Positions 1,381 to 48,466 of a stretch of DNA of 64,000 bases are shown piece by piece; position 1 is the stretch's first letter, and every line of letters begins with the position of its first letter. The translations under genes were made by a program, and so were the position numbers. The notes beneath the pieces were generated by a model. The model was not told the DNA's origin. It worked only from the letters and a program-made list of their open reading frames with translations, and made no database searches. Origin of the DNA: Apium graveolens (taxonomy: Eukaryota > Streptophyta > Magnoliopsida > Apiales > Apiaceae). The stretch spans positions 1 through 64,000 of the forward strand of contig NW_027420023.1 in the NCBI RefSeq assembly GCF_009905375.1. The letters run 5' to 3'.

Positions 1381-4300
1381 CTAAGCAGATTTAGAGAAAG
1401 AACCTGAAACCATTCCAAGTTCATTTACCAATCTTGTAAAAGTAGCTTCACATAATGGTTTTGTGAAGATATCTGCCAACTGTTGATCTGTGGGAACAAA
1501 ATGCAATTCCACTGTACCTTTATCCACATGTTCCCTGATGAAATGGTACCTGATGCTGATGTGCTTTGTCATTGAGTGTTGAACTGGATTACCTGTCATA
1601 GCAATAGCACTTTGATTATCACAGTAAATATGGATTTTGAAATATGTTAACCCATAATCCAGTAACTGATTCTTCATCCAAAGAATCTGTGCACAACAGC
1701 TTCCTGCAGCAATTTACTCTGCTTCTGCAGTTGATGTGGAAATTGACTTTTGTTTCTTGCTGTACCAAGAAACCAATCTGCCTCCAAGAAATTGGCAGCT
1801 TCCACTTGTGCTTTTCCTGTCAATTTTGCAACCTGCAAAATCTGCATCTGAGTAACCTATTAGTTTAAAATCTGATTCTCTAGGATACCATAATCCCAGA
1901 GCAGCTGTCCCTTTAAGATACTTAAAGATTCTTTTTACAGCTGTTAAGTGAGGTTCTCTTGGATCTGCTTGAAATCTTGCACAAAGACAGGTAGCATACA
2001 TGATATCAGGTCTACTAGCAGTTAGATAGAGTAGAGAGCTAATCATACCTCTGTAGTCAGTAATATCTACTGATTTACCGGTATCCTTATCCAGTTTTGT
2101 TGCAGTGGCCATTGGAGTGGATGCACTTGAACAATCTTGCATTCCAAATTTCTTTAGCAAGTTTCTGGTGTACTTGGTTTGACAAATAAAAGTGCCTTCC
2201 TCATTCTGCTTGACTTGAAGGCCCAGAAAATAGCTAAGTTCCCCCATCATACTCATCTGATATCTTGACTGCATTAGTTTGGCAAACTTCTTGCAAAGTT
2301 TGTCATTTATAGATCCAAAAATGATATCATCAACATAAATCTGGACCAGAAGTAAGTCCTTTCCATGGTTGAGGTAGAACAGTGTTTTGTCTATTGCCCC
2401 TCTGTTGAATCCACTTTCCAGAAGAAACTGAGCTAAAGTCTCATACCATGCTCTAGGAGCTTGCTTAAGTCCATAAAGTGCTTTGTCAAGTCTGTAGACA
2501 TAGTCTGGATGTTTGGTATCTACAAAACCTGGAGGTTGTTCAACATATACCTCTTCCTCCAATTCTCCATTGAGAAAAGCACTTTTCACATCCATTTGAA
2601 AGATAGTAAACTTTTTGTGAGCAGCATAAGCCAAAAATATCCTTATGGCTTCTAACCTAGCAACTGGTGCAAATTTTCATCATAATCAATTCCCTCCTGT
2701 TGAGAATATCCTTTTGCAACCAGCCTTGCCTTATTCCTTGTAATTATGCCATCACTGTCAGTTTTGTTTCTGAATACCCACTTTGTACCAACAACAGATC
2801 TATTCTTTGGTCTTGGTACTATGGTCCAGACTTTGTTTCTTTCAAATTCATTCAACTCTTCCTGCATTGCTTGCACCCAATCAGCATCTTGAAGAGCTTC
2901 TTCCACTTTTTTTGGCTCATTCTGAGAGAGAAAAGAATTGTAAAGACACTCATTTGAAGTACCTGTTCTAGTTCTGACACCTGCATCAGGATTTCCAATT
3001 ATCAAATCAGGTGTATGTGATTTTATCCACTTCCTTGCAGATGGAAGGTTTTCTCTAGAACTGGATGCTCCCCCATGATCCATGCTATCTTTATTTTCAT
3101 TTTCTGATGCTCCCCCTGAAACTATGCTCTCTGAGTTGGATTCTTCAGTATTTAGATTTTCAGTACTATCTGAACTTGGCTTATCAGAACTTGATGAATC
3201 AGAACTTGAAGAGCCAGATGCATGTTCGGATGTTTCTTGAGATGTGGTAGGATCTTGAGTATGCTCCCCCTGCATAGGGGCATCTTCCTTTAACGTAGTC
3301 ACCACAGTTTCAATAACATCAGAGTTTAATCCATCAGAGTTTGCAGTATCAGGACTTAGACTGTCAGGATTTTCAGTATCAGAATATGAGTCTTCATTTT
3401 CAAATCTCAGCTGATCATGGTCAATGAAATCTTTAAGACCAGTGATCTTCTTGTCATCAAAAGAGACATTGATAGATTCCATGACCACTTTTGTTCTCAA
3501 ATTATAGACTCTGAAGGCTTTTATGGAAAGTGGATATCCAACAAAGATTCCTTCATCAGCTTTTAGATCAAACTTTGATAGCTGTTCAGGATGACTCTTG
3601 AGAACAAAACAATTGCATCCAAATACATGAAAATATTTCAGATTTGGCTTTTTTTTCTTCACCATCTCATATGGTATTTTTCCATGCTTGTTAATGAGTG
3701 TTGCATTTTGAGTAAAATAAGCAGTCTGCACAGCTTCAGCCCAGAAATAGGTTGGAAGCTTTGCTTCTTCAAGCATTGTACGTGCAGCTTCAATGAGAGT
3801 TCTATTCTTTCTTTCAACAACTCCATTTTGCTGTGGAGTACCAGGAGCAGAAAATTCCTGCTTTATTCCATGGCTTTTGCAGAACTCTTCCATTTTCAAA
3901 TTCTTGAGCTCAGTGCCATTATCACTCCTTAAAATTTTCACAGAATCTTTGACCATTTTATCCAGCTGTTTGACATGATCAATCAAGATAGATGCAGTTT
4001 CACTTTTTGTGTGCAAGAAATACACCCATGTGTATCTGGTGAACTCATCCACTATGACCAACGCATACTTCTTCTTTGCAATAGACATGACATTTACTGG
4101 ACCAAATAGATCAATATGTATAAGATGATAAGGCTCAAGAATTGATGAATCAGTCTTGCTCTTGAATGAAGATTTTCTTTGTTTGGCTTTCTGAAATGAA
4201 TCACAAAGACCATCAGGAGCAAATACTGTGTTTGGCAATCCTCTCACAAGATCTTTCTTGACCAGTTCATTTATATTGTTGAAATTTAAATGAGAGAGTT

Positions 4301-4724
4301 TTTTATGCCAATTCCAGCTTTCTTCAATTGATGCTCTACTTAACAGACAGATTGGAGAGCCATCAGTACTTGTTGAAAGCTTAGCTTCATAAATGTTACC
4401 ACGTCTGTATCCTTTCAGAACAACTTTGCCTTTAGATTTACTCACAATTTCACAGTGTTCTTCAAAGAAATCAACATGATAACCTCTGTCACAGATTTGA
4501 CTTATACTCAGTAGGTTGTGTTTAAGTCCTGAGACCAGAGCTACTTGTTTAATTATGACATTTCCAAGATTGATATTGCCATATCCCAATGTTTTTCCAA
4601 TATTGCCATCTCCATAAGAAACACTTGGGCCAGCTTTCTCCATAAAGTCTGATAGCAGGGCCTTATTTCCAGTCATATGTCCTGAACATCCACTTTCCAG
4701 AACTAGAATATTTTTCCTGTTGCC
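1381..4724 (-). pseudogene. pol: pol of A (protease-integrase-RT-RNase H), broken
   Basis: Copia-type polyprotein part downstream of the predicted 3' splice site. Order: protease, integrase (HHCC finger, DDE core), RT with YVDD, RNase H ending in the IFTKPL block and stop at 1381. Compared with C it carries a one-base deletion near 2672-2678 in the RT N-terminus (DYDE then shifts), and a TAT-to-TAA stop at 1714-1716 inside the RNase H motif STAEAEY. The protease active site reads ESG where C has DSG, and the integrase finger has CDSF where C has CDSC, so two essential residues are lost. Without these lesions it would read in frame from the gag exon through the spliced junction. Confidence 0.92.
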
Positions 4725-5810
4725 CTGCAATCACAAAGACCACTAATTATTAGTTTTAAGGACCCAGACTTGCTTGGATCCTTTGGCCTTATTAAGTTTG
4801 TTAACATTTGCAGCGGATTTAGCATCAGAGTTTATGTTAACATTTTTCTTAACAGAATTTACACCATCAGACTTTGAATCAGAATTTACACTAGAAGGAA
4901 CAATGGAAACTTTCTTCAAAGAAGGTTTTATTTGATAATAATCATAGTACAAACTATGATATTCCTTACAAGTATAAATGGAATGCCATAAACTACCACA
5001 ATGAAAACAAGGATTTTGTGGTTTGTATCTAACAGACTGACTCTTAACTCCTGATTTTGAAGGTAAGGAGTTAATATTCTTATTCTTCCTGCAAAAAGAA
5101 GCCAGATGGTTAGAACTTCCACAGTTATGACATGTTTTCCTAGGAGCATCAGGAACAGGTTTATAATCATTGCTTTTATTCACACCTTCCTTTCCATTCC
5201 TATTTTTCCTAGGTGATTTTACCTTGTTTGCATTCTTGACATCTTTCAGCTTATGCTTAAGCTGCTTCTTTGTCATTAAGCCTATGTTTACTTCAGCTGT
5301 CTTTTCCTGTTTTAGTTTGTCAGAAGTTAATTCCTCTTTAACTTCTAATTTCTCATTATCAGACTTTACAGTTATAAACTTAACAGGTTTTAACTTTGGC
5401 TTTTGCTTAACAACAGGCTTAATTTCTTCAGTTCCTTTATCATTCTTATTCTCTCCATAACCTAAGCCCTCTTTCCAATTTTCACTACTTAGCAAATTTT
5501 GAGTTGTTCTGCCAGAGTTAGTCCAAGTCCTGATCATCTCTCTTTCCTTTTCTAACTCAGTTTTTAGAGATTCATTCATTTTTAGCACTTCATCCCTAAC
5601 ATAAAAAGCATCATCTCTATCCTTCTGAGTTTGATGGAATATAACTAACTCTTTTTCTAAGAAATCATTTCTTTTCTTAAAAGCAAGATTTTCAGAAGTT
5701 AATCTTTCACATGTTAAGGTTTGATCTCTATAACTAACAAACATGGTTTTAAGATATCTTCTCAACTCATTAATATCATCAGTATGAAAAGTATAAGTAG
5801 TCTGAGGTAC
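4725..5810 (-). other. Predicted GT-AG intron between gag and pol of A (1086 nt)
   Basis: Donor AAAG|GTACCT at 5811/5810; acceptor TGATTGCAG|GGC at 4725/4724; a CTAAT branch-point match lies about 30 nt upstream of the acceptor. Joining the flanks gives GAAACAAAGGGCAACAGG, which is exactly the uninterrupted sequence of C across 38231/38232. The length is divisible by three and the intron is open in the gag frame until a TAG near its 3' end. Retained, it gives long Gag; removed, it gives Gag-Pol. Splicing itself is inferred. Confidence 0.82.
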
Positions 5811-7079
5811 CTTTGTTTCAGCAGCTTCAGAACTGCTCTCAGCACTTTCTTTATCAGCATTTGCCATCAATGCATAGTTCTCCTCACTTTCAGAGTCTGA
5901 AGTGTCTGTCCAGCTTTTCTGCTTTGTGACAAGAGCCTTGCCTCTGTCACCCTTTACCTTCTTGCAGTCAGGAGATATATGGCCTTTCTCACCACAGTTA
6001 TAGCATTTAACATTGGTGTAATCTCCTCTGTCAGACTTTCCTCCTCTGCCTTCAGATCTTCTGAAATTCTTCTTATCAGAACTTATGCTTTTTCTGGAAA
6101 ACTTCTTTCCCTTCCTGAACTTCCTGTATGCAATCTTGGTGATTCCTTTCACCATAAGAGCACACAGCTTCATCATCTCCTCATCAGCATCAATCTCAGG
6201 CAAGCTTTCAGAATCTGAGTCATCATCACTCTCAGAACTTGATGACTCAGTATCAGACTTTATGAAAAGAGCTTTACCCTTGTCTTTCTTTGAGGAAGCT
6301 GCTTTGGGGAATTCTTCTTCAGCCTTAAGAGCAACTGTCCTTGACTTTCCTCCTTTCCTCTTGCTTCTTTGTTCCATCTCCAGCTCATGAGTCTTGAGCA
6401 TTCCATAGATTTCGTCAAGAGTTGTTTCATCAAGATTGTAGTTGTCTCTTATTGTCGTTGCCTTCAAATCCCAGCATTCAGGAAGAGCTAACAGGAACTT
6501 AAGGTTTGAATCTTCAAGATCATACTCTTTATCAACCAATGACAAATCATTCAAAAGTTTGACAAATCTATCATATAAATCATTCAATGAGTCATTAGTC
6601 TTTGAGTCAAAGTGTTCATACTCTTGAGTGAGTATTGTCTTCCTGTTCTTCTTAATTGTGTCAGTTCCCTGACATCTTGTTTCCAGAGCATCCCATATCT
6701 CCTTAGCAGTCTTGCAGTTGATTACCCTGTTTGACATTACATTATCAATGGCACTATGCAGTAAGTGTCGTACCTTACCATCCTTAGCAATTGATGCTAT
6801 GTCCTCAGCAGTATAATCACTCTTCTCCTTTGGTACGGTCATTGCTGCTTCACCTGCAACTGCAACAGCGAGTTTGGTTGGTTTGTGAGGACCTTCCTTG
6901 ATTCTATCCAGGTATTCTGGATCTGTTGCTTCCAGGAACATGGTCATCCTTACCTTCCATATGGGATATTCAGATGGTCTCAGTATGGGGACTCTGATGG
7001 TCTCATACCGACTCTGAATTTGTGTCTTTGGTGGTTCCTCAGTTGTGGTAGGCTTAGTTGGAGTTTCTATGTCTGACAT
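4743..7079 (-). CDS. gag: Gag of A, long form read through the intron (778 aa)
   Basis: Capsid/nucleocapsid polyprotein of a copia element. The start ATG at 7079 lies 43 nt inside the PBS. The N-terminal ~250 residues have the copia Gag fold (YPIWKVRM near residue 41). Then come basic and acidic serine-rich segments and a CCHC knuckle CYNCGEKGH at about residue 359. After residue ~423 the reading enters the predicted intron and adds ~355 residues: a coiled-coil-like segment, then two more CCHC-like knuckles, CHNCGSSNH (~648) and CFHCGSLWH (~690). The stop TAG is at 4743-4745, 18 nt before the 3' splice site. C has the first ~420 residues fused straight to protease. The frame is open throughout, which suggests the long form was selected. 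Confidence 0.85.
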   Translation of the reverse strand: MSDIETPTKPTTTEEPPKTQIQSRYETIRVPILRPSEYPIWKVRMTMFLEATDPEYLDRIKEGPHKPTKLAVAVAGEAAMTVPKEKSDYTAEDIASIAKDGKVRHLLHSAIDNVMSNRVINCKTAKEIWDALETRCQGTDTIKKNRKTILTQEYEHFDSKTNDSLNDLYDRFVKLLNDLSLVDKEYDLEDSNLKFLLALPECWDLKATTIRDNYNLDETTLDEIYGMLKTHELEMEQRSKRKGGKSRTVALKAEEEFPKAASSKKDKGKALFIKSDTESSSSESDDDSDSESLPEIDADEEMMKLCALMVKGITKIAYRKFRKGKKFSRKSISSDKKNFRRSEGRGGKSDRGDYTNVKCYNCGEKGHISPDCKKVKGDRGKALVTKQKSWTDTSDSESEENYALMANADKESAESSSEAAETKVPQTTYTFHTDDINELRRYLKTMFVSYRDQTLTCERLTSENLAFKKRNDFLEKELVIFHQTQKDRDDAFYVRDEVLKMNESLKTELEKEREMIRTWTNSGRTTQNLLSSENWKEGLGYGENKNDKGTEEIKPVVKQKPKLKPVKFITVKSDNEKLEVKEELTSDKLKQEKTAEVNIGLMTKKQLKHKLKDVKNANKVKSPRKNRNGKEGVNKSNDYKPVPDAPRKTCHNCGSSNHLASFCRKNKNINSLPSKSGVKSQSVRYKPQNPCFHCGSLWHSIYTCKEYHSLYYDYYQIKPSLKKVSIVPSSVNSDSKSDGVNSVKKNVNINSDAKSAANVNKLNKAKGSKQVWVLKTNN

Positions 7080-7121: not shown

Positions 7122-7133
7122 GCTCTGATACCA
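7122..7133 (-). promoter_or_regulatory. Primer binding site of A (tRNA-iMet)
   Basis: Minus-strand TGGTATCAGAGC two bases inside the 5' LTR; matches the 3' end of plant initiator tRNA-Met by known family usage. Confidence 0.93.
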
Positions 7134-7135
7134 AT

Positions 7136-7750
7136 TGTTAGGTCACACACACACTGTAGAGGGGGTGAATACAGTGTATAGTACACTCAAATCGAACTTT
7201 AAGAACTTAAGTAACAGAAAACAAACTTTATTGAAACAATAAACTCTGTTACAGTATGGAACTGTTACCTCTCAGTGATGAACAAATATCACGAGAGCTG
7301 CTAGGGTTACAATGAATAATCTTTTCTAATAATGATAACACTTATAGTGTAAACCCTATGTCTGTGTTTATATACTACACAGTTACAAGATAATCGCTAA
7401 TTGATATGGAATATAATTCTGCTTCCTAAAATATATCAATCAGATATCTTTTCTTCCAAGTATTCCATTCTTCACGGAATTCCTTCTTCATGCATATCTC
7501 TTCTTATGTTTATCTCGATCTTCTTTCCTTTAATCAGCTACTGTCCTTATCTGATTGTCCTTCAGCACTTAAGTTCTGATATCTATCTTCTGATGATTAT
7601 CTCCTGATAATATAAGTACTGATATCCTTAAGTCCTGACTTGCAGTATAAGTACTGATCAACAGTTAAGTACTGATTTATCCTGTTCACGTAAGATCTGA
7701 AAGCTAAACATAAAACATATTAGCCATGACATTATCAAATATATCTAACA
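7136..7750 (-). repeat. 5' LTR of A (615 bp)
   Basis: On the minus strand it runs from TGTTAGATATATTTG to TGACCTAACA, homologous to the 599 bp LTRs of C. TATA box at 7367-7374 (minus TATATAAA). It contains the same clusters of TCAGTACTTA motifs as C. An almost identical second copy at 10477-11091 arose by segmental duplication, not insertion. Confidence 0.95.
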
Positions 7751-9357
7751 ATCCAGATGTTGGAGTCAGAACTAGACGTGCTACTCAAAATGAGTGTCTG
7801 TTCTCAGGATTTCTTTCTGAGATGGAACCTAAGAAGATTGAGGAAGCACTGACTGATCCAAATTGGGTGATTGCTATGCAAGATGAACTCAATCAATTTG
7901 AAAGTCAACAAGTCTGGAAACTGGTACCTAGACCTACACACAAGAAAGCTGTTGGTACTAGGTGGGTATTCAGGAATAAACTAGATGAAGATGGTGTGGT
8001 TACAAGAAACAAAGCAAGACTGGTAGCTAAAGGGTATTCTCAAGCTGAAGGCATTGATTATGATGAAACCTATGCTCCAGTGGCTAGACTAGAGGCCATC
8101 AGGATATTTTTGGCATTTGCAGCATTCTCTAACTTTAAAGTTTATCAAATGGATGTCAAGAGCGCCTTTCTGAATGGAAAGCTGGATGAAGAGGTATATG
8201 TAGAGCAACCTCCTGGTTTTGAAGATCCAGATCATTTGGATTTTGTCTTCTTTCTTTTCAAGGCTATCTATGGACTCAAACAGTCTCCGAGAAAATGGTA
8301 TGACACTCTCTCTGAATTTCTTATTGAAAATAGCTTTATTAGAGGTGTCATAGACAAAACTCTCTTTTCTAAAAAACATAAGAATGATACTATATTAGTT
8401 CAAGTCTATGTGGATGATATAATATTTGGGTCTACTAATGATAATCTCTGTAAGAGATTTGCTAAGTTAATGCACAGCAAGTTTGAAATGAGCATGATGG
8501 GAGAGCTGAAGTTCTTTCTTGGATTACAAGTAAATCAAAGGTTAGATGGAACATTTATTTGTCAATCCAAGTATCTCAAGGAACTCCTCAAAAAGTACAA
8601 TCTAGAGGATTCTGCATCAGCAAGGACTCCATCAACTACAGCTGTCAAGCTTGGACCATGTGAAAACTCTATTAAGGTAGATGTCATAAGCTACAGAGGT
8701 ATAATTGGCTTGTTACTCTATCTTACTGCAAGTAGACCAGATATTATGTATGCTACATGCTTATGTGCAAGGTTCCAAGCGGATCCTAGAGATATTCATC
8801 TCGTTGCTGTTAAACGAATCTTAAGATATCTTAAGGGAACACTAAATCTAGGTATTTGGTACCCTAAAGAATCTGGTTTTAACCTTGTTGGATATACAGA
8901 TTCAGATTATGCAGGAAGTGTTGTTGATAGGAAAAGCACCTCAGGGAGTTGTCAATTCCTAGGTAGCAGACTAGTCTCATGGTACAGCAAGAAACAGCAA
9001 ACAGTTTCCAACTCAACGGCCGAGGCTGAATATATTGCTGCTGGAAGCTGCTGTGCTCAGATCTTGTGGATTAGGAACCAGCTATGAGACTATGGCTCTG
9101 TATTGAACAAAATTCCTATTTTATGTGACAATACAAGTGCAATAGTCATCACCGACAACCCTGTGCAGCACTCGAGGACAAAGCACATTGACATCAGGTA
9201 TCATTTTATTAGAGAGCACGTCATGAATGGTACTGTTGAACTATTTTTTGTTCCAACAGAAGAACAAATAGCAGATATTTTCACTAAACCTCTTGATGAA
9301 TCCACATTTACCAAATTAGTTGGTAAATTGGGTATGTTGAATAGCTTTAGTGATTAA
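7751..9357 (+). pseudogene. pol: pol 3' part of B (RT-RNase H), duplication copy 1
   Basis: The frame enters from A's LTR; genuine B sequence begins at 7751 with NPDVGVRTR. It carries the copia RT core ([23 protein letters not shown] near 8408-8430) and RNase H ([35 protein letters not shown]), ending at TAA 9355. A TGA at 9085-9087 replaces an expected Arg codon after NQL; it is shared with copy 2 and so predates the duplication. Ile replaces the usual Met in YRGMIG (8703). The integrase half lies on the other side of A, outside the window. Confidence 0.92.
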
Positions 9358-9679
9358 ACTTTTGAATATCTGAAATCTGTTCTTGAATGAATTTACAAAT
9401 GAATTTTTCATAAATGAAAAATTCATTTGCAAATTCATTTTATCATTTTCCAAAATTTCCTGCTTATTTCTATGAAATTTATATTATCTTATCTGTTTTA
9501 TTTACTCTACTTGTAAATTTCAAATATCTCAAAATATTTTATTTCTCTAAAAATATTTTTCTATGAATTTTATTTGCTAAAATTCAACAGAAATCTATTT
9601 TTGGAATAAAAATAATTAATTCTGAAATATTGTCTTTGTTTTTATAAATATTTTCTGTAAGTATATAATTGTCTTTCTA

Positions 9680-10095
9680 CTGGAATGACAATCGGCAAGA
9701 CAATTAAAATTGTCTTGCTGAAAATCATTTCAGTACATATATATATAAATATGAACATACTAATTCTGTTTATAATTGTTTTATTTCCAAAATGACAATC
9801 GGCAAGACAATTGAAATTGTCTTGCTGAAAGTCATTTCAGTATATAATTGTGTTATTTTGGTTATCAATATAGTTTTATACTGGCAAGACAATCGGTATG
9901 ACTATCAATTGTCTTGCCAGTTATAAACCTTATATATATATATTTTTCTTTTATTTTATACTGGTATGACAATCGGTATGACTATCAGATTGTCATACCA
10001 GTTATATATATTTAGTGTTTATTAATTTTATTTCTTTTATGTTTTTTTCTGTCTGGTATGACAATCGGTATGACAATCCCGGATTGTCATACCAG
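9680..10095. repeat. Array of five hairpins with GACAATCGG core, copy 1
   Basis: Inverted repeats spaced 50-110 bp. Hairpin 1 has arms GCAAGACAATT/AATTGTCTTGC inside longer imperfect arms (9680-9733). Hairpin 2 repeats this near 9790-9840. Hairpin 3 is 9881-9920 with 13-bp perfect arms CTGGCAAGACAAT. Hairpin 4 (9961-10001) and hairpin 5 (10053-10095) have 14-bp arms CTGGTATGACAATC. The loop always contains CGG plus another TATGAC or CAAGAC. Confidence 0.9.
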
Positions 10096-10170
10096 TTATA
10101 CTACTTAATCATTTTTGTGTCTGTTTTTTTTAATTTTCATCAGTTCAGTTCAATTTGTTTTTCAAATATC

Positions 10171-10175
<5 letters not shown>

Positions 10176-10263
<88 letters not shown>
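10176..10263 (+). repeat. (TC)44 microsatellite
   Basis: Uninterrupted 88-nt TC tract in the leader ahead of ORF3; (TC)37 in the other copy. Confidence 0.98.
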
Positions 10264-10268
<5 letters not shown>

Positions 10269-10476
10269 TTCAATCAAATCAACAGTCACCATTGTTCCTC
10301 TTGCTCGAGTTTTTACTCAACACACTCTTCTGATATATACATACACTTGTATACATACAGAAGTGAAGTGCTGCCCAATTTTTTTTTATTATTTATTTCA
10401 GTTATTTCTATCAATTTTTTCTTTTTCCCCAAAACAATCTGATTGTTATTGTGTCTTGTGTTTTAGGTATTTCAAT

Positions 10477-11091
10477 TGTTAGGTCACACACACACTGTAG
10501 AGGGGGTGAATACAGTGTATAGTACACTCAAATCGAACTTTAAGAACTTAAGTAACAGAAAACAAACTTTATTGAAACAATAAACTCTGTTACAGTATGG
10601 AACTGTTACCTCTCAGTGATGAACAAATATCACGAGAGCTGCTAGGGTTACAATGAATAATCTTTTCTAATAATGATAACACTTATAGTGTAAACCCTAT
10701 GTCTGTGTTTATATACTACACAGTTACAAGATAATCGCTAATTGATATGGAATATAATTCTGCTTCCTAAAATATATCAATCAGATATCTTTTCTTCCAA
10801 GTATTCCATTCTTCACGGAATTCCTTCTTCATGCATATCTCTTCTTATGTTTATCTCGATCTTCTTTCCTTTAATCAGCTACTGTCCTTATCTGATTGTC
10901 CTTCAGCACTTAAGTTCTGATATCTATCTTCTGATGATTATCTCCTGATAATATAAGTACTGATATCCTTAAGTCCTGACTTGCAGTATAAGTACTGATC
11001 AACAGTTAAGTACTGATTTATCCTGTTCACGTAAGATCTGAAAGCTAAACATAAAATATATTAGCCATGACATTATCAAATATATCTAACA
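10477..11091 (-). repeat. Duplicated LTR of A (615 bp), not a solo LTR
   Basis: Nearly identical to 7136-7750. Its left neighbour is B's pre-ORF3 leader and its right neighbour is B's pol, so it has no target duplication and came with the tandem duplication. TATA copy at 10708-10715 (minus). Confidence 0.93.
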
Positions 11092-12698
11092 ATCCAGATG
11101 TTGGAGTCAGAACTAGACGTGCTACTCAAAATGAGTGTTTGTTCTCAGGATTTCTTTCTGAGATGGAACCTAAGAAGATTGAGGAAGCACTGACTGATCC
11201 AAATTGGGTGATTGCTATGCAAGATGAACTCAATCAATTTGAAAGTCAACAAGTCTGGAAACTGGTACCTAGACCTACACACAAGAACGCTGTTGGTACT
11301 AGGTGGGTATTCAGGAATAAACTAGATGAAGATGGTGTGGTTACAAGAAACAAAGCAAGACTGGTAGCTAAAGGGTATTCTCAAGCTGAAGGCATTGATT
11401 ATGATGAAACCTATGCTCCAGTGGCTAGACTAGAGGCCATCAGGATATTTTTGGCATTTGCAGCATTCTCTAACTTTAAAGTTTATCAAATGGATGTCAA
11501 GAGCGCCTTTCTGAATGGAAAGCTGGATGAAGAGGTATATGTAGAGCAACCTCCTGGTTTTGAAGATCCAGATCATTTGGATTTTGTCTTCTTTCTTTTC
11601 AAGGCTATCTATGGACTCAAACAGTCTCCGAGAAAATGGTATGACACTCTCTCTGAATTTCTTATTGAAAATAGCTTTATTAGAGGTGTCATAGACAAAA
11701 CTCTCTTTTCTAAAAAACATAAGAATGATACTATATTAGTTCAAGTCTATGTGGATGATATAATATTTGGGTCTACTAATGATAATCTCTGTAAGAGATT
11801 TGCTAAGTTAATGCACAGCAAGTTTGAAATGAGCATGATGGGAGAGCTGAAGTTCTTTCTTGGATTACAAGTAAATCAAAGGTTAGATGGAACATTTATT
11901 TGTCAATCCAAGTATCTCAAGGAACTCCTCAAAAAGTACAATCTAGAGGATTCTGCATCAGCAAGGACTCCATCAACTACAGCTGTCAAGCTTGGACCAT
12001 GTGAAAACTCTATTAAGGTAGATGTCATAAGCTACAGAGGTATGATTGGCTTGTTACTCTATCTTACTGCAAGTAGACCAGATATTATGTATGCTACATG
12101 CTTATGTGCAAGGTTCCAAGCGGATCCTAGAGATATTCATCTCGTTGCTGTTAAACGAATCTTAAGATATCTTAAGGGAACACTAAATCTAGGTATTTGG
12201 TACCCTAAAGAATCTGGTTTTAACCTTGTTGGATATACAGATTCAGATTATGCAGGAAGTGTTGTTGATAGGAAAAGCACCTCAGGGAGTTGTCAATTCC
12301 TAGGTAGCAGACTAGTCTCATGGTACAGCAAGAAACAGTAAACAGTTTCCAACTCAACGGCCGAGGCTGAATATATTGCTGCTGGAAGCTGCTGTGCTCA
12401 GATCTTGTGGATTAGGAACCAGCTATGAGACTATGGCTCTGTATTGAACAAAATTCCTATTTTATGTGACAATACAAGTGCAATAGTCATCACCGACAAC
12501 CCTGTGCAGCACTCGAGGACAAAGCACATTGACATCAGGTATCATTTTATTAGAGAGCACGTCATGAATGGTACTGTTGAACTATTTTTTGTTCCAACAG
12601 AAGAACAAATAGCAGATATTTTCACTAAACCTCTTGATGAATCCACATTTACCAAATTAGTTGGTAAATTGGGTATGTTGAATAGCTTTAGTGATTAA
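11092..12698 (+). pseudogene. pol: pol 3' part of B (RT-RNase H), duplication copy 2
   Basis: Same RT-RNase H segment as 7751-9357. It keeps the usual Met in YRGMIG (12044) but has an extra CAA-to-TAA stop at 12339-12341 after WYSKKQ, besides the shared TGA at 12426. YVDD motif near 11750-11765. It ends at TAA 12696. Each copy therefore has a private change, which polarises mutations after the duplication. Confidence 0.92.
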
Positions 12699-13019
12699 AC
12701 TTTTGAATATCTGAAATCTGTTCTTGAATGAATTTACAAATGAATTTTTCATAAATGAAAAATTCATTTGCAAATTCATTTTATCATTTTCCAAAATTTC
12801 CTGCTTATTTCTATGAAATTTATATTATCTTATCTGTTTTATTTACTCTACTTGTAAATTTCAAATATCTCAAAATATTTTATTTCTCTAAAAATATTTT
12901 TCTATGAATTTTATTTGCTAAAATTCAACAGAAATCTATTTTTGGAATAAAAATAATTAATTCTGAAATATTGTCTTTGTTTTTATAAATATTTTCTGTA
13001 AGTATATAATTGTCTTTCT

Positions 13020-13438: not shown

Positions 13439-13512
13439 TATACTACTTAATCATTTTTGTGTCTGTTTTTTTTAATTTTCATCAGTTCAGTTCAATTTGT
13501 TTTTCAAATATC

Positions 13513-36303: not shown

Positions 36304-36308
36304 TTAAT
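36304..36308. other. Target site duplication of C (TTAAT), left
   Basis: TTAAT also at 48467-48471; the uninterrupted site GATTTAATCTATTC is seen in H's 3' LTR at about 58501. Confidence 0.95.
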
Positions 36309-36907
36309 TGTTAGATATATTTGATAATGTCATGGCTAATATGTTTTATGTTTAGATTTCAGATCTTATTTGAACAGAACAAATCAGTACTTAACTGATC
36401 AGTACTTATACTGGAAGTCAGAACTTAAGGGATATCAGTACTTATGTCATCAGGAGATAGATATCAGAACTTAAGTGCTGAAGGATGATCAGATAAGGAC
36501 AGTAGCTGATTAAAGTTAAGAAGATCAAGATAAACATAAGAAGAGATATGCATGAAGAAGGAATTCCGTGAAGAATGGAATACTTGGAATAGAAGATATC
36601 TGATTGATATATTTTAGGAAGCAGAATTATATTCCATATCAATTAGCGAATATCTTGTAACTGTGTAGTATATAAACACAGAGATAGAGTTTACACTAGA
36701 TGTGTTATCATTATCGAGAATATTATTTAATATAACTCTAGAAGCTCTCGTGATATTTTGTTCATCACTGAGAGATAACAGTTCCAGATTGTAACAGAGT
36801 TTATTGTTTAAATAAAGTTTGTTTTCTGTTACATAAGTTCTTGAAGTTTGATTTGATTGTAATAAACACTGTATTCACCCCCTCTACAGTGAAAGTGTGA
36901 CCTAACA
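36309..36907 (+). repeat. 5' LTR of C (599 bp)
   Basis: TGTTAGATATATTTG to GTGACCTAACA. TATATAAA at 36669-36676; AATAAA at about 36810. Five TCAG(T/A)ACTTA decamers lie within 36384-36473. Confidence 0.97.
36669..36676 (+). promoter_or_regulatory. LTR promoter TATA box of C
   Basis: TATATAAA in GTAGTATATAAACACAG; same in the 3' LTR (48228-48235) and in A's LTRs. By family knowledge transcription starts ~30 nt downstream. Confidence 0.7.
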
Positions 36908-36962: not shown

Positions 36963-39900
36963 ATGTCTGACACAGAAACTCCAACTAAGCCTACCAAAAC
37001 TGAGGAATCATCAAAGACATCAATTCAGAGTCGATATGAGACTATCAGAGTTCCCATATTGAGACCATCTGAATATCCCATATGGAAGGTAAGGATGACC
37101 ATGTTTCTGGAAGCAACAGATCCAGAATACCTTGATAGAATCAGGGAAGGGCCTCACAAACCTACCAAGCTCGCTGTTGTAGTTCCAGGTGAAGCAGCAA
37201 TGACCGTACCAAAGGAAAAGAATGATTACACTGCTGAAGATATAGCATCTATTGCTAAGGATGCCAAGGTACGTCACTTATTGCATAGTGCCATTGATAA
37301 TGTAATGTCAAACAGGGTAATCAACTGCAAGACTGCTAAGGAGATATGGGATGCACTGGAGACAAGGTGTCAAGGAACTGAAACAGTTAAGAAGAACAGG
37401 AAGACAATACTCACTCAAGAGTATGAACACTTTGACTCTAGGACTAATGAGTCATTGACTGATGTATATGAAAGATTTGTCAAACTCTTGAATGACTTGT
37501 CATTGGTTAATAAGGAGTATGATCTTGAAGATACAAACCTCAAATTCCTGTTAGCTCTTCCTGAATGTTGGGATTTGAAGGCAACAACAATAAGAGACAA
37601 CTACAATCTTGATGAAACAACTCTTGATGAAATCTATGGAATGCTCAAGACTCATGAACTTGAGATGGAACAAAGAAGCAAGAGGAAAGGAGGAAAGTCA
37701 AGAACTGTTGCTCTCAAGGCTGAAGAGAAATCCCCCAAACCATCTTCCTCAAAGAAAGATAAGGGTAAAGCTCTTATCATAAAATCTGATACTGAGTCAT
37801 CAAGTTCTGAGAGTGATGATGACTCAGATTCTGAAAGCTTGCCTGAAACTGATGCTGATGAGGAGATGATGAAGCTGTGTGCTCTTATGGTGAAAGGAAT
37901 CACAAAGATTGCATACAGGAAGTTCAGGAAGGGAAAGAAGTTTTCCAGGAAAGGCATAAGTTCTGATAAGAAGAATTTCAGAAGATCTGAAGGAAAAGGA
38001 GGAAAGTCTGACAGAGGAGATTACGCTAATGTTAAATGTTATAATTGTGGTGAGAAAGGCCACATATCTCCTGAGTGCAAGAAGACCAAGAATGACAAAG
38101 GCAAAGCTCTTGTCACAAAGCAGAAAAGCTGGACAGACACCTCAGACTCTGAAAGTGAGGAGAACTATGCATTGATGGCAAATGCTGATAAATCAAGTTC
38201 TGAGAGCAGTTCTGAAGCTGCTGAAACAAAGGGCAACAGGAAAAATATTTTAGTTCTGGACAGTGGATGTTCAGGACACATGACTGGAAATAAGGCCCTG
38301 CTATCAGACTTTGTGGAGAAAGTTGGCCCAAGTGTTTCTTATGGAGATGGCAACATTGGAAAAACTTTGGGATATGGCAATATCAATCTTGGGAATGTCA
38401 TCATTAAAGATGTAGCTCTGGTCTCAGGACTTAAACACAACTTACTGAGTATAAGTCAAATCTGTGACAGAGGTTATCATGTTGATTTCTTTGCAGAACA
38501 TTGTGAAATAGTTAGTAAATCTAAAGGAAAAATTGTTCTGAAGGGATTCAGGCGTGGTAACATTTATGAAGCTAAGCTTTCAACAAGTTCTGATGGTTCT
38601 GCAATCTGTTTAGTGAGTAGAGCCTCAACTGAAGAAAGCTGGAATTGGCACAAGAAACTCTCTCATTTAAACTTCAACAAGATAAATGAACTGATCAAGA
38701 AAGATCTTGTGAGAGGACTGCCAAAATCAGTGTTTGTTCCTGATGGTCTTTGTGACTCATGTCAGAAGGCTAAACAAAGAAAATCTTCGTTCAAGAGCAA
38801 GACTGAATCATCAATTCTTGAGCCTTATTATCTACTTCATGTTGATCTATTTGGTCCAGTGAATGTCATGTCTATTGCAAAGAAGAAATATGCGTTGGTC
38901 ATAGTAGATGAGTTTACCAGATACACATGGGTGTATTTCTTGCACACAAAAAGTGAAACTGCATCTATCCTGATTGATCATGTCAAACATCTGGATAAAT
39001 TGATCAAAGATTCTGTGAAAATTTTGAGGAGTGATAATGGCACTGAATTCAAGAATTTGATAATGGAAGAGTTCTGCAAAAATCATGGAATAAAGCAGGA
39101 ATTTTCTGCTCCTGGAACTCCACAGCAAAATGGAGTTGTTGAAAGGAAGAATAGAACTCTAATTGAAGCTGCACGAACAATGCTTGAAGAAGCAAAGCTT
39201 CCAACCTATTTCTGGGCTGAAGCTGTGCAGACTGCTTGTTTTACTCAAAATGCAACACTCATTAACAAGCATGGAAAAACACCATATGAGATGGTGAAAA
39301 ACAAGAAGCCAAATCTCAAATACTTTCATGTATTTGGATGTAAGTGTTTTGTTCTCAAGACTCATCCTGAACAGCTATCCAAGTTTGATCTAAAAGCTGA
39401 TGAGGGAATCTTTGTAGGATATCCACTTTCTACAAAAGCCTTCAGAGTCTATAATTTGAGAACAAAAGTGGTCATGGAATCTATCAATGTCTCTTTTGAT
39501 GACAAGAAGATCACTGGACTTGAAGATTGCATTGATCATGATCAGCTGAGATTTGAAAATGAAGATTCATATTCTGATACCTCAAGTCCTGACAGTCTAA
39601 GTCCTGATACTGTAAATTCTGATGGATTAAACTCTGATGTTATTGAAACTGTGGTGACTACGTCAAAGGAAGATGCACCAATGCAGGGGGAGCATACTCA
39701 AGATATTATCACATCTCAAGAAGCATCAGAACATACATCTGGCTCTTCAAATTCTGATTCGTCAAGTTCTGATAAGCCAAGTACTGACAGTGCTGAAAAT
39801 CTAAATACTGAAGGATCCAACTCAGAGAGCATAGTTTCAGGGGGAGCATCAGAAAATGAAACCGAAGACAGCATGAATCATGGGGGAGCATCCAGTTCTA

Positions 39901-41576
39901 GAGAAAATCTTCCATCTGCAAGGAAGTGGACAAAATCACATACACCTGATTTAATAATTGGAAATCCTGAGGCAGGTGTCAGAACTAGAACAGGTACTTC
40001 GAATGAATGTCTTTACAATTCTTTTCTCTCTCAGTCTGAGCCAAAGAAAGTGGAAGAAGCTCTTCAAGATGCTGATTGGGTGCAAGCAATGCAGGAAGAG
40101 TTGAATGAATTTGAAAGAAACAAAGTCTGGACCTTAGTGCCAAGACCCAAGAATAGATCGGTTGTTGGTACAAAGTGGGTATTCAGAAACAAAACTGACA
40201 GTGATGGCATAATTGTAAGGAACAAGGCAAGGCTGGTTGCAAAAGGATATTCTCAGCAGGAGGGAATTGACTATGATGAAACATTTGCTCCAGTTGCTAG
40301 GTTAGAAGCCATAAGGATATTCATGGCTTATGCAGCTCACAAAAAGTTTACTGTCTTTCAAATGGATGTGAAAAGTGCTTTTCTCAATGGAGAATTGGAA
40401 GAGGAAGTATATGTTGAACAACCTCCAGGCTTTGTAGATTCCAAACATCCAGATTATGTCTACAGGCTTGATAAAGCACTTTATGGACTTAAGCAAGCTC
40501 CTAGAGCATGGTATGAGACTTTAGCTCAGTTTCTTCTGGAAAGTGGATTCAATAGAGGAACTATTGACAAAACATTGTTCTATCTCAACCATGGCAAGGA
40601 CTTACTTCTGATCCAAATTTATGTTGATGATATTATTTTTGGGTCTCCAAATGACAAACTTTGCAAAAAGTTTGCCAACCTAATGCAGTCAAGATATCAG
40701 ATGAGTATGATGGGAGAACTTAGTTATTTTCTGGGCCTTCAAGTCAAGCAGACTGAAGAAGGAACTTTTATTTGTCAATCTAAGTATACCAGAAACTTGC
40801 TGAAGAAATTTGGAATGCAAGACTGTTCAAGTGCATCCACTCCCATGGCCACTGCAACAAAACTGGATAAGGATACTGGTAATTCAGTAGATATTACTGA
40901 TTACAGAGGTATGATTGGCTCACTTCTCTATCTAACTGCTAGTAGACCAGATATCATGTTTGCTACCTGTCTTTGTGCAAGATTTCAAGCAGATCCAAGA
41001 GAACCTCACTTAACAGCTGTAAAAAGAATCTTTAAGTATCTTAAAGGAACAGCTGATCTAGGATTATGGTATCCTAGAGAATCAGATTTTAAATTAATAG
41101 GTTACTCAGATGCAGATTTTGCAGGTTGCAAAATTGACAGGAAAAGCACAAGTGGAAGCTGCCAATTTCTTGGAGGCAGGTTGGTTTCTTGGTATAGCAA
41201 GAAACAAAAGTCAATTTCCACATCAACTGCAGAAGCAGAGTATATTGCTGCAGGAAGCTGTTGTGCACAGATTCTTTGGATGAAGAATCAGTTATTGGAT
41301 TATGGGTTAACATATTTCAAAATCCCTATTTACTGTGATAATCAAAGTGCTATTGCTATGACAGGTAATCCAGTTCAACACTCTATGACAAAGCACATCA
41401 GCATCAGGTACCATTTCATCAGGGAACATGTGGATGAAGGTACAGTGGAATTGCATTTTGTTCCCACAGATCAACAAGTAGCAGATATCTTCACAAAACC
41501 ACTGTGTGAAGCTACCTTTTCAAAATTGGTAAATGAACTTGGAATGATTTCAGGTTCTTTCTCTAAATCTGCTTAA
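36963..41576 (+). CDS. gag-pol: Gag-Pol polyprotein of C (1537 aa), intact
   Basis: Start at the ATG of [10 protein letters not shown], matching A's gag; the frame is open further upstream without an ATG. Gag core with YPIWKVRM (~40), CCHC knuckle [14 protein letters not shown] (359-372), then directly protease DSGCSGHM (Asp ~433), integrase HHCC finger (WHKKLSH ~563 to CDSC ~597-600), DDE core (HVDLFGP ~626, RSDNGTE ~690, ERKNR ~727), an acidic Ser-rich linker (~870-990), RT with [10 protein letters not shown] and YVDD (1220-1223), RNase H (YSDADFAG ~1377, STAEAEYIA ~1423, IFTKPL). All catalytic residues present. Between knuckle and protease it lacks the ~355 residues that A's intron encodes. 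Confidence 0.97.
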
Positions 41577-43952: not shown

Positions 43953-46900
43953 ATGGCACCAAAGGATTTAATCATTGATGGAGCAAAGTTCGTTCCAAAC
44001 AACTATGCTGCAATTCTTGATCATACTGAAGCTCCATCTGAATTGCATTTTGTGCAAGATCTTCTTGCACATAGTGAGGTTGGGTACGCCTTAACTCAGC
44101 CTGAATTCTTTTCAAGTCAACAAGTTCTGAGGTTCTGGAGGACTGGCGTTTTTGATGATGGTGGTAACCGTGGAACTCCCAGTATTATCTTCCAAGTGGG
44201 TGATTCATCTTTTGTAGTCACTCCTGGTACAGTACGCAGGGCTTTACATCTTCCAGAGGATTGTACTTTCTCAGTTCCAGAGGACTCAGCCCTTCGGGAG
44301 TTAATGGCTGAATTGGGATATGAAAAGAGTCTGACGAAACTTGGACAATTGAAACGGGCTAATATCAGAAGAGAATGGAGTTTCTTCTTCGATTGCATCA
44401 CCAAGGCCTTTGGCAACAAGTGTTCAAATTTTGATGCCATCCCAATTCTGAGTCAGCATATCGGGTATGCTATTATCCATCAAACTCATTTTGATTTTGC
44501 AACTGGAATAATTGGTTTTATTGGGGATAGGATGACAGAGGATCGAGATGTTGTTTATTTTGCTAGATTCTGTCAACTTATTTATACGTATTGTACTGCT
44601 GAACCCCAGTTAGTCAGCACTCAAACCCCACCTTTTAAGGTTGCAAAAAGGTACTTTAACGACCTGATAAATGCTGACACAAAGAAATCAATGGTGAGAC
44701 AATTCCAGATTCCTCAGTCTGTGAAACAGATTCTGGTAAATGCTGATCCAGCTACTTACAAATCTGTTTACTCAAATGTTCAACCAACTCACCATAACCA
44801 AAATCCATCAACCTCAGTCCCTACCTCTCATTCTACTCAACCTACCCTCAGAACTTATCTCAAATCCTATCTCTCTACTTCACAGAATGCTCAACCTTCT
44901 TCTTCAGCACCTACTGTGAAGCCTACATCCTCTAAGCCAAAGAGAACAAAGACTGTTCCTCAAACATCTCATAAGAAGAGGAGGATTACTTTGAGAGATG
45001 AATCAGATTCTGAGGATCAGATTCCATCTTCAGAACCTATGATAGATGAAGCTGAGAAGACAACTTCTCAGAAGGATTCTGCAATTGGGGGTTCTAGGCT
45101 TCTCAAGAGGCTTAGACGTATGACGGTTCCTGCTACTCCCAAGGAATCCAAATCAACAAGAAAGTACAAGAAACAGAGGGCACAGAGGCCAGTTTCAGAT
45201 GATGAGGAGGAAGCAGCTAAGGAAGGGGATCAGGAATCTCTGATCTCACAAGACAAGGAATTTGCTCCAGTCACTTCTTCTCCATCAACTCCATCTCAGG
45301 AACCTGTATCTGACAAGGCTAATTCACCTTCTATATCTCTTGTTGATCCAGGCACAAGTGCTGAAATTGATATTCAGAACTTGGTTGTGCCTGAAATACT
45401 TTTCTTAGAAGCTCCAACAGCAAATAATCCTTCCACAACACCTGTTACTGATGCTGTTCAAACTCCTGAGTTATCACTAACACCTTCTCTGCATCAAGAT
45501 GATGATCAGATTTTAGGTGAGCATCAGGATATGGCTGTTGATCAGAACTTAGTATCAGATCAGCAATTAGAGGATGTTGAAGCCTCCATTGCTACTCATA
45601 CAGTTGTCTTATCAGAAGATACTGATTCTTTAAGTTCTGATGCTGCAAATGTTGGAGATACTGGTGAAGCTGCTACAACTGTAGATGCTGATGCAGCAGG
45701 TCCTTCAGGACATACTCCTCCACTGACTCTTCCTAAGTCTGAACTGCTAAAGGAGTTTGTTATCAGGGATGCACCAGTACCTTGGAGTGAAACTCCTGCA
45801 GGTCAGGAGTGGACTAAGGAATGGAACTCAGTTTCATGTGTTCCAAATGCTTTACATCTTGCTGAGCACTTGACTAAAGCTGATGAAATGTTAAATTCTG
45901 ATGATTTTAAAACTCAGCTTAGGGTCACTGCATTGAGTACTAAACATCTACAAGGTCTTCATTCCAACACTCATGCAGAGCTACACAAGATTCAGGAGAA
46001 CTTTATTAAACAGGAACAAGTTTGGAAACTTGATAAGAAAAAGTTCTTCCAACCTACCATTGACAGGGTTGCTTATATTGAGAAAACTCAAGAGAAGCAA
46101 CAAGCTCAGATTGATCAAATTCTGACAAATCAAGCTTCTCAGCAATCGCAACTTACTGAAATCCAGACCTCAGTGGAATTACTTATCTCTCTTTTATTAC
46201 CTGCTGATGCCAAAAAGGGGGAGAAGGTAATTAAGTCCAAATGCAAAACCAACAAGTCACTGCAAGGAAAGGATGATGGAAAAGATGACCAAGGAAACTC
46301 TGGAATGGGTAGTGGTCATAGTCAAGGTAGAAGGTTTACATCAAGACAAGCTAGTCACAGAACAAGTTCTGATACTGGGAAAAGAATAAGTTCTGCTGCT
46401 GGTAAAAGTATAAGTTCTGATGAACTTCTAGATCTTGATGAGGAAATGTCAAGACAGTTATTTCTTCAAGAAAATCCAGGGATGGACTTGGAAAGTTTAA
46501 AGGAAGAAGAAGCCAGACTTAAATCAGAGAAAGTCACATCTAAATCTGAAGCTTCTGGTAAAAAGTTACTTCCAAAACCTAAAGGCATTGTGATCAAAGA
46601 AAGGATACATACTGAAGAAACTTTGGCTAGATCACAACCACAGATAGATCCAAGATCCAAGGGTAAAGAAAAGGTTGGTGAACCTATCAAGCCTTATGTA
46701 CCTCCTGAGGAAGAAGAAATTACTGTTGGAAAAGATAATCTTGCTCTGACTTCAAGGAAAGTTCTTAAAACAACCTCTGACATGGCTCAAGTTGTTCAGA
46801 GTCAAGAAATTGTAAGTTCTGATATTCAGAAGAAGCAAGTAACCTCTGACAGTGCTCAAGTTAACTTGATATCAGAAAATAAATCTAAAACACTCCTACC

Positions 46901-47660
46901 AGGATTCACTAAAGCAAAACAGACTCAATCTTTGAAGACTATTTCAAGTGGTTTTGAAGCAAGAGTAGTTACTGGAAAGGAAGCTAGAGATAAAACTGGA
47001 TTGGGAAGTGCTGATGAAAGAAGAGTACACAACACTACCGATGATCCAACTTCCTTGAGTGAACCAGGTATTGGAGCAACTCCTGAGAGATTGAATCAAC
47101 TAGAATCTGTACAGATGGTTTACCATACCTATTTGAAAGAATACATCATGTTGTATTTCATGACAGATGGTAGGGTTTATCATATAAGACAAAATGCCAT
47201 TCCGTTGAAGTATTTTGAAGAATTGGAGCATGTATTGTTCTTACTTCAAGAGGATGACAGAATAACAGAGACTGCTGCAAACTACTTAAAGGAACAGATT
47301 CAGAGACAGAAAAGACTTTATTCTGTTAAGTCTGACAGCAGATATGTTCCAAAGTACAGAAATCACAATGGTGATGTTGTTGATATGAAGCCTAATACTG
47401 CACAGATCAGAACATATCTTGGTATTAAGGGGCTTGAATTCAATCTAGAGTCTAATAAAGCTTATGTCATAAGACTAGATCGGGAGTTGAGAAAAGCAAA
47501 GATTAATGATCTCAGAGCTGCAATATTTCAAACTGGTGAAGATACTGCAGAGCTTAAAGATGTCAAACGGAGAATGATTGATGAACTCAGATATGCTGAG
47601 AAATGTTTGTTGAAGAATTATCTCAGAACAACTCCTGACATCAGAGAGATCAGAAAATGA
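43953..47660 (+). CDS. ORF3 of C (1235 aa), intact retroelement protein of unknown function
   Basis: Begins MAPKDLIIDG. The N-terminal globular region (~1-235) includes FQVGDSSFVVTPGTVRRALHL and REWSFFFDCITKAFGN, alignable with B's ORF3. The middle ~240-1010 is low complexity: Ser/Thr/Pro-rich, basic KKRRI and RKYKKQR patches, acidic SDSEDQ, a helical stretch with PAGQEWTKEW (~615-740) containing coiled coil, Gln-rich TEKQQAQIDQIL, and a KGIVIKE motif (~880). The C-terminal globular region (~1050-1235) includes YLKEYIMLYFMTDGRVYHI and ends in charged helices. No signal peptide or clear transmembrane helix, so it is not an evident envelope despite lying in the env position. Open for 1235 codons in a young element, hence probably under constraint. 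Confidence 0.85.
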   Translation: MAPKDLIIDGAKFVPNNYAAILDHTEAPSELHFVQDLLAHSEVGYALTQPEFFSSQQVLRFWRTGVFDDGGNRGTPSIIFQVGDSSFVVTPGTVRRALHLPEDCTFSVPEDSALRELMAELGYEKSLTKLGQLKRANIRREWSFFFDCITKAFGNKCSNFDAIPILSQHIGYAIIHQTHFDFATGIIGFIGDRMTEDRDVVYFARFCQLIYTYCTAEPQLVSTQTPPFKVAKRYFNDLINADTKKSMVRQFQIPQSVKQILVNADPATYKSVYSNVQPTHHNQNPSTSVPTSHSTQPTLRTYLKSYLSTSQNAQPSSSAPTVKPTSSKPKRTKTVPQTSHKKRRITLRDESDSEDQIPSSEPMIDEAEKTTSQKDSAIGGSRLLKRLRRMTVPATPKESKSTRKYKKQRAQRPVSDDEEEAAKEGDQESLISQDKEFAPVTSSPSTPSQEPVSDKANSPSISLVDPGTSAEIDIQNLVVPEILFLEAPTANNPSTTPVTDAVQTPELSLTPSLHQDDDQILGEHQDMAVDQNLVSDQQLEDVEASIATHTVVLSEDTDSLSSDAANVGDTGEAATTVDADAAGPSGHTPPLTLPKSELLKEFVIRDAPVPWSETPAGQEWTKEWNSVSCVPNALHLAEHLTKADEMLNSDDFKTQLRVTALSTKHLQGLHSNTHAELHKIQENFIKQEQVWKLDKKKFFQPTIDRVAYIEKTQEKQQAQIDQILTNQASQQSQLTEIQTSVELLISLLLPADAKKGEKVIKSKCKTNKSLQGKDDGKDDQGNSGMGSGHSQGRRFTSRQASHRTSSDTGKRISSAAGKSISSDELLDLDEEMSRQLFLQENPGMDLESLKEEEARLKSEKVTSKSEASGKKLLPKPKGIVIKERIHTEETLARSQPQIDPRSKGKEKVGEPIKPYVPPEEEEITVGKDNLALTSRKVLKTTSDMAQVVQSQEIVSSDIQKKQVTSDSAQVNLISENKSKTLLPGFTKAKQTQSLKTISSGFEARVVTGKEARDKTGLGSADERRVHNTTDDPTSLSEPGIGATPERLNQLESVQMVYHTYLKEYIMLYFMTDGRVYHIRQNAIPLKYFEELEHVLFLLQEDDRITETAANYLKEQIQRQKRLYSVKSDSRYVPKYRNHNGDVVDMKPNTAQIRTYLGIKGLEFNLESNKAYVIRLDRELRKAKINDLRAAIFQTGEDTAELKDVKRRMIDELRYAEKCLLKNYLRTTPDIREIRK

Positions 47661-47867: not shown

Positions 47868-48466
47868 TGTTAGATATATTTGATAATGTCATGGCTAATA
47901 TGTTTTATGTTTAGATTTCAGATCTTATTTGAACAGAACAAATCAGTACTTAACTGATCAGTACTTATACTGGAAGTCAGAACTTAAGGGATATCAGTAC
48001 TTATGTCATCAGGAGATAGATATCAGAACTTAAGTGCTGAAGGATGATCAGATAAGGACAGTAGCTGATTAAAGTTAAGAAGATCAAGATAAACATAAGA
48101 AGAGATATGCATGAAGAAGGAATTCCGTGAAGAATGGAATACTTGGAATAGAAGATATCTGATTGATATATTTTAGGAAGCAGAATTATATTCCATATCA
48201 ATTAGCGAATATCTTGTAACTGTGTAGTATATAAACACAGAAATAGAGTTTACACTAGATGTGTTATCATTATCGAGAATATTATTTAATATAACTCTAG
48301 AAGCTCTCGTGATATTTTGTTCATCACTGAGAGATAACAGTTCCAGATTGTAACAAAGTTTATTGTTTAAATAAAGTTTGTTTTCTGTTACATAAGTTCT
48401 TGAAGTTTGATTTGATTGTAATAAACACTGTATTCACCCCCTCTACAGTGAAAGTGTGACCTAACA
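47868..48466 (+). repeat. 3' LTR of C (599 bp)
   Basis: Two differences from the 5' LTR seen by eye; followed by TTAAT target duplication and resumption of H's LTR. Confidence 0.97.

Follow-up and report, generated by a model that had tools for sequence, protein, structure and literature searches.

Two copia elements of one family in the window

The window, i.e. the whole stretch of 64,000 nucleotides of Apium graveolens DNA analysed here, contains two members of one copia family, A and C, whose shared parts are 92-93% identical (Table 1). The gag of A lies at 7079-4743 on the minus strand, and C occupies 36304-48471 on the plus strand with its target duplications included. In C, Pfam gave the domain order gag, CCHC, Pol_BBD, integrase, and RVT_2, in which the integrase precedes the reverse transcriptase as is the copia order, and Gag-Pol is encoded by one uninterrupted frame of 1555 codons. 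The two LTRs of C are 99.67% identical over 601 nt, the element is flanked by a 5-bp target duplication (TTAAT), and a 1235-codon ORF 3' of pol, at the place of the extra ORF of Sireviruses, had no Pfam match. Element A is damaged, its pol frame being broken near 2652-2634; its pol lies in the frame of gag but behind two in-frame stops, TAG and TGA, both upstream of the acceptor described below.

Table 1. Coordinates of the features of elements A and C in the window
Feature	Position	Strand	Basis
A, gag exon 1 (423 codons) with the capsid domain and CCHC knuckle 1	5811..7079	-	ORF; Pfam Retrotran_gag_2, zf-CCHC; A vs C dN/dS 0.175
A, predicted facultative intron GTACCT...TTGCAG, 1086 nt	4725..5810	-	Absent from C and from 340 genomic junctions
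A, coding portion of the intron, a Gag extension of 355 residues with its stop TAG at 4745-4743	4743..5810	-	dN/dS 0.34, 0.33
A, long predicted helix of the Gag extension, coiled-coil candidate	5511..5783	-	Structure prediction, low to moderate confidence
A, second CCHC knuckle, within the intron	5091..5132	-	Motif
A, third CCHC knuckle, within the intron	4968..5009	-	Motif
A, CTAAT, branch-point-like	4749..4753	-	YTNAY, assumed consensus
A, predicted 3' splice site TTGCAG	4725..4730	-	Other copies: similar in-phase YAG at 90 of the 100 boundaries listed
A, exon 2: protease, integrase, start of reverse transcriptase; frame broken near 2652-2634	2652..4724	-	ORF, Pfam
A, 5' LTR, ends TGTTA / TAACA	7136..7750	-	
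C, intronless Gag-Pol frame, junction 38231/38232	36963..41576	+	
C, 5' LTR	36309..36907	+	
C, 3' LTR, pair 99.67% identical	47868..48466	+	
C, target site duplication TTAAT	36304..36308, second copy 48467-48471	+	
C, ORF of 1235 codons 3' of pol, where Sireviruses have an env-like or extra ORF	43953..47660	+	No Pfam match

A first-pass annotation of this DNA had described 1086 nt of A bounded by GTACCT and TTGCAG with CTAAT inside, and had stated that their removal reproduces the gag-protease junction of C. Both statements were confirmed: exactly the stretch at 5810-4725 (minus strand) is missing from C, whose junction at 38231/38232 reads AAAGGGCAAC and lies within one open Gag-Pol frame. 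The donor side of A reads AAAG/GTACCT at 5811/5810, and the acceptor side TTGCAG/GGCAAC at 4725/4724. Because of a 3-nt repeat (AGG), the junction between A and C has four equivalent placements, of which GT..AG is one. The A of CTAAT, at 4753-4749, which we take to be branch-point-like on the YTNAY consensus, lies 25 nt upstream of exon 2. When scored with a donor matrix, the donor of A (7.1) ranked below another exon site at 6953 (10.2), and the donor of the F1 family treated below (7.8) was not the best site either.

The window holds further repeats. A 3.34-kb tandem duplication at 7132-13805 (99.4% identical) includes the LTR of A and the 3' half of another, oppositely oriented copia element. 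Long repeats related to one another form two pairs, 98.4 and 98.6% identical, at the four positions 25224-27959, 33037-36308, 55237-58508, and 61231-63964, and may be LTRs of great length that belong to other elements; one of them contains C, and the matching empty site lies at 58504-58508.

The stretch encodes an extension of Gag

When the stretch is retained, the frame of A remains open for 778 residues, with 355 codons inside the stretch, and ends at TAG (4745-4743), 18 nt from the intron end. The first CCHC knuckle (residues 359-372) lies upstream of the donor, and the retained part adds two more at residues 650-663 and 691-704. The unspliced frame running through the stretch, the gain of two knuckles, and the stop 18 nt before the acceptor were thus all seen as originally described. 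The coiled coil attributed to the extension stood in part: single-sequence AlphaFold2 (mean pLDDT 41.5) predicted one long helix of 91 residues at positions 10-100 of the extension (block pLDDT 41-84), and at this modest confidence the helix is a candidate coiled coil. A search against solved structures returned short CCHC matches only, the best with an E value of 0.011.

For the gag frame within the stretch, dN/dS was 0.341 between A and L035 (350 codons) and 0.334 between A and L036 (177 codons), two relatives in the same genome that carry the stretch (L036 partly) and have kept the donor AAG/GTACCT; the two shifted frames of the same stretch gave 1.19 to 1.55. The corresponding values for gag exon 1 were 0.116 and 0.142 against L035 and L036, respectively, and the comparison of A with C gave 0.175 for gag exon 1 and 0.223 for the first part of pol. 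Purifying selection inside the intron, proposed at the outset as a check on the splicing reading, was accordingly found in two comparisons, and these substitution patterns indicate that the reading frame of the intron is maintained as protein. Furthermore, dS was lower in the stretch (4725-5810) than in exon 1 (5811-7079), at 0.27 vs 0.72 and 0.56 vs 0.88, which could reflect splicing signals, recombination, or composition.

Copies with and without the stretch in three families

In the genome of the plant itself (3.33 Gb in 4849 contigs), 29-nt patterns with up to two mismatches allowed located the donor junction of A at 8985 places and the intronless junction of C at 340; reversed-pattern controls for both junctions gave 0 matches. 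A two-anchor search with 0 to 30 free bases between the anchors (31 lengths) yielded 213 intronless matches, and the 100 listed of these all had 13 bases, the single length expected from GT..AG removal; 390 different deletion products fitted this search, and 7 of these had microhomology of 3 nt or longer. Copies with other deletion endpoints, which had been named beforehand as the finding that would turn C into the carrier of a random deletion, were absent from the 100 listed of the 213 matches, and the splicing reading was therefore not refuted. Since the stretch is missing to the exact base in hundreds of copies, the RNA is likely to be spliced there at times.

The sites of a second family, F2, which like the third below is Sirevirus-like, were placed from one damaged copy, L031 (gag 36% and pol 53-57% identical), with the predicted donor ..CAG/GTAATC (TAG in the L031 copy) and the predicted acceptor TGTGCAG/GG. 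In F2, a gap search located intronless copies at 8 places, compared with 211 donor-bearing places sharing the upstream anchor, and several variants of these 8 copies recur among the donor-bearing ones. For a third family, F1, the expected junction was fixed before the search from the single copy L078, and 19 intronless places were found. To these junctions predicted beforehand, 8/8 intronless places conformed in F2 and 18/19, at the exact predicted length, in F1. The odd F1 copy (G000:C8:224278219-224278299) is longer by five bases, as if a TAG acceptor situated 5 nt upstream of the CAG had been used. One exon variant is common to 17 of the 19 intronless F1 copies and two pairs of them lie about 5 kb apart, so that separate losses in this family are possibly few. 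In three families of different sequences, the missing stretch is thus particular to the family and bounded by the splice sites predicted for it, and the donor occupies a similar position in A, F1, and F2, 11 to 17 residues past the ALMA motif. Judging from these junctions, retro-copying of spliced RNA would be the simplest account of the exact absence in the three families.

The gag/pol boundary and the route to Pol

Gag/pol boundaries were collected with a pattern of the Gag C-terminal WVPK followed by the protease-side HMTG, which is blind to both stop and acceptor. In the plant's own genome it matched 24824 times, and the control gave 0 matches. By sequence type, the 100 boundaries listed of these comprised 28 F1, 66 F2, 3 F3, 1 F4, and 2 F5. 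At 90 of the 100 listed boundaries, a YAG lying in phase 0 with pol came no more than 35 nt after the Gag stop; in some of the 10 misfits the AG, the stop, or the spacing was altered, apparently through mutation. A single open frame crossed from gag to pol at one listed boundary and was interrupted at the other 99; relative to gag, pol was shifted to the +1 or +2 frame in 98 of the 100, and it shared the gag frame in two. In the listed F2-type boundaries, pol was found in +2 (38), +1 (26), and 0 (2), the shifts being caused by insertions or deletions of one nucleotide ahead of the acceptor, and the YAG nevertheless stayed in phase with pol in 61/66.

The form YTNAY is that of plant branch points. 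At four of eight boundaries, namely the F1, F2, F4, and F5 examples, the Gag stop is contained in a YTNAY motif whose A is 16-20 nt before exon 2, and in A and the F3, L006, and L021 examples (the last two being contigs described in the final section) it lies outside such a motif.

The splice might be real and its RNA nevertheless defective, with a Gag-Pol that has no role and intronless copies that are mere by-products. The intronless copies are indeed a minority, amounting to 340 of 9325 in the family of A and 8 of 219 in F2, fractions obtained with unequally strict patterns; a low abundance would, however, follow from the unspliced RNA being the genome. Copies with a single gag-pol ORF would have no need of splicing, which speaks against a splicing requirement, but they account for 1 of the 100 listed boundaries, so that elsewhere among these Gag would not be joined to Pol in one frame without splicing. 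Moreover, phase 0 is kept at both donor and acceptor in A, F1, F2, L006, and L021. We thus consider a purposeless splice improbable.

It appears similarly improbable that Pol is reached by ribosomal recoding (frameshift or bypass) or by internal initiation at the gag/pol boundary, with splicing merely incidental. Such routes have been proposed for Sireviruses, where pol is described as lying in a +1 frame, with a conserved inverted repeat at the boundary and with bypass or internal entry as the suggested solutions (PMC2829016; PMC5009743), and the F2 boundary does show a modest hairpin (z -1.79). However, no RNA hairpin was common to the five boundaries examined (z -0.61, -1.79, -0.56, 0.29, and 0.56). 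Recoding requires a fixed frame, and the pol frame varies between 0, +1, and +2 among the 100 listed boundaries, even within F2-type copies; a ribosomal frameshift or other fixed recoding signal is therefore disfavoured; internal initiation may still occur. In addition, the exact loss of the intron argues that the splice is made.

Probable repeated loss of the stretch

Twenty intronless places with 400-nt flanks were picked outside the C-like top list, a non-random choice in which A-like copies are therefore over-represented, and both flanks were nearer to A than to C in 17 of the 20 (one with a truncated second flank). Ten donor-bearing copies were compared over the same two flanks. This class was set by the donor alone, and on the acceptor side the comparison covered the stretch expected to be exon 2, which starts inside exon 2 in L058 and is not homologous in L072 and L076. 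In a tree of 29 tips, from which L047, L050, L072, and L076 had been dropped for non-homologous flank sequence, the intronless tips were scattered among the donor-bearing ones, and a minimum of 14 losses was needed for 19 intronless tips (11-18 over 1000 bootstrap trees). With branches of support below 95 collapsed and each polytomy allowed a single loss for all its intronless members, at least 5 losses were left. Recombination or template switching that spread the junction could have caused independent losses to be over-counted. As for the surroundings of C, its 171-nt junction region had 40 places of 99-100% identity, that of the window included (40 scored of 637 candidates), and the donor-bearing L058 fell inside this C-like cluster at 99.4%.

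That C arose by a DNA deletion between the AGG repeats, the GT..AG of A being coincidental and all intronless copies descending from one deleted master, is highly improbable: the 3-nt repeat at the junction and the 40 near-identical places, through which an intronless lineage may have been amplified, would suit such an event, but the flanks nearer to A, the dispersed losses in the tree, the position of L058, the uniform length of the listed junctions, and the precise loss from F1 and F2 of their own, different stretches at predicted splice sites all oppose it.

Proposed expression strategy

At the level of DNA, there are splice-site sequences, an exact and repeated absence, an in-phase acceptor, and selection on the frame of the intron. 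We regard it as very probable, on these sequence grounds, that the 3' part of gag is a facultative coding intron, the unspliced RNA giving the long Gag and the spliced RNA giving Gag-Pol. The unspliced RNA would then serve as both the genome and the Gag mRNA, and the spliced RNA as the Gag-Pol mRNA. The latter would occasionally be packaged, reverse transcribed, and integrated to give intronless copies, and a few percent of the copies would have originated in this manner. Gag-Pol would be devoid of the Gag extension with its long helix and extra knuckles, the capsid part and the first knuckle would be common to Gag and Gag-Pol, and the ratio of the two products would be set by the splicing efficiency of the host, which may act as the dose switch inferred in the first-pass annotation.

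The nearly identical LTRs and the clean TTAAT duplication of C suggest that it is a copy made from spliced RNA, or the child of such a copy. The 40 places, its own included, that match its junction region at 99-100% identity indicate that intronless copies may multiply, perhaps, to speculate, with Gag supplied by intron-containing copies, in analogy to the dependence of BARE2 on BARE1 (PMC3735527).

An extension of this scheme to Sireviruses as a whole seems to us likely, though held less firmly. The gag/pol boundary would then be a 3' splice site, and a splice whose donor lies within gag, in place of recoding, would give access to pol; a facultative intron would encode the C-terminal portion of Gag, the stop would leave the pol frame free to vary, and intronless copies would record the splicing. 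If so, a splice within gag explains together why there is a stop, why the frame drifts, and why Gag is so large, and the ratio of Gag to Gag-Pol falls under the control of the host splicing machinery in elements that make up a large fraction of some plant genomes. Counting exact intronless copies would furthermore provide a DNA-only readout of the past splicing of a mobile element.

Comparison with known systems

A coding intron recalls the exitrons of plant genes, which keep the frame open through both ends when retained. In both, the sequence retained from the intron encodes protein and is subject to selection; here, however, the retained form stops inside the intron, 18 nt short of its 3' end, with TAG and TGA before the acceptor.

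The Sireviruses or SIRE elements (Maximus; SIRE1, Opie-2, Endovir) resemble the elements studied here in their long gag with CCHC and a downstream coiled-coil candidate and in a pol that lies close behind the gag stop in another frame; they also have an extra ORF past pol (PMC2829016; PMC6317226), the place at which C has its 1235-codon ORF without a Pfam match. A has an enlarged gag of 778 residues with a central CCHC at 359-372, the coiled coil being represented by the one 91-residue helix predicted with modest confidence, and its gag and pol are split by TAG and TGA, a separation by stop or frame also seen at 99 of the 100 listed boundaries. For Sireviruses, a single-ORF gag-pol is described as the consensus, together with many elements having pol in unusual +1 frames (two) (PMC2829016; PMC5009743). 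The expression of Pol from the +1 frame is listed among the unsolved matters, with the remark 'Puzzles awaiting resolution abound' (PMC5009743). The proposals made for Sireviruses are recoding or internal entry, as distinct from the splice proposed here, which leads from inside gag to just past the gag stop.

Among other retrotransposons, Ogre (Ty3/gypsy, Tat) has an intron that is spliced in a subset of transcripts, so that the whole polyprotein can be translated (PMC6317226), and it shares with the present case the connection of two coding blocks by partial splicing. Ogre nevertheless belongs to another superfamily, and its inter-ORF intron, 274 bp on average, lies between protease and reverse transcriptase and is described without any selected part of Gag; here the domains are in copia order, and the intron lies between the first CCHC and the protease-side Pol_BBD. 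Bianca (Ty1/copia) is similar in having two ORFs, on average 172 bp apart, for which a special expression strategy was suggested, but the description in PMC6317226 includes neither splicing nor a selected Gag extension. BARE1 and EVD (EVADE) come close as copia elements with a facultative intron in the gag/protease region that decides between Gag and Gag-Pol (PMC3735527; PMC12786077). The outcome is reversed, however: in these elements the spliced RNA gives Gag only and the unspliced RNA Gag-Pol, whereas the intronless C has an open Gag-Pol of 1555 codons. In two sunflower copia elements, spliced isoforms were likewise reported to code for a truncated Gag (PMC7730604). The opposite logic pointed out in the first-pass annotation is accordingly confined to the comparison with the copia cases BARE1 and EVD, since Ogre provides a precedent (PMC6317226). 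Intron-controlled expression of gag and pol is known; what would be new is a Sirevirus splice that leads from within gag to pol, and it would offer an answer to the puzzle cited above. No report of such a splice was found in the open-licence literature, and an earlier mention elsewhere is possible.

Related contigs in bacterial assemblies

Relatives were also sought in viral contigs, in prokaryote contigs by RT alignment, and in plasmids, and none was found there. A degenerate RT motif did pick up 12 stretches in prokaryote contigs, and tblastn gave a copia polyprotein match for 12/12. These contigs, L001-L012, and a further one, L021, come from assemblies of bacteria (Labilibacter sediminis CG51, Streptomyces, Solirubrobacter, and others) and presumably represent eukaryote contamination of public genomes, from plants in the case of L006 and L021. 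The pol of L006 is 51% identical to that of C, and L021 is 43% identical to L006, both being from one assembly. L006 and L021 repeat the anatomy of A, as judged from donor and acceptor sites: a phase-0 donor lies past the first knuckle (CAG/GTACGT and GAG/GTATGT), then comes the Gag stop, and this is followed by TTTTTCAG/GA or TTGTGCAG/GA in phase with pol.
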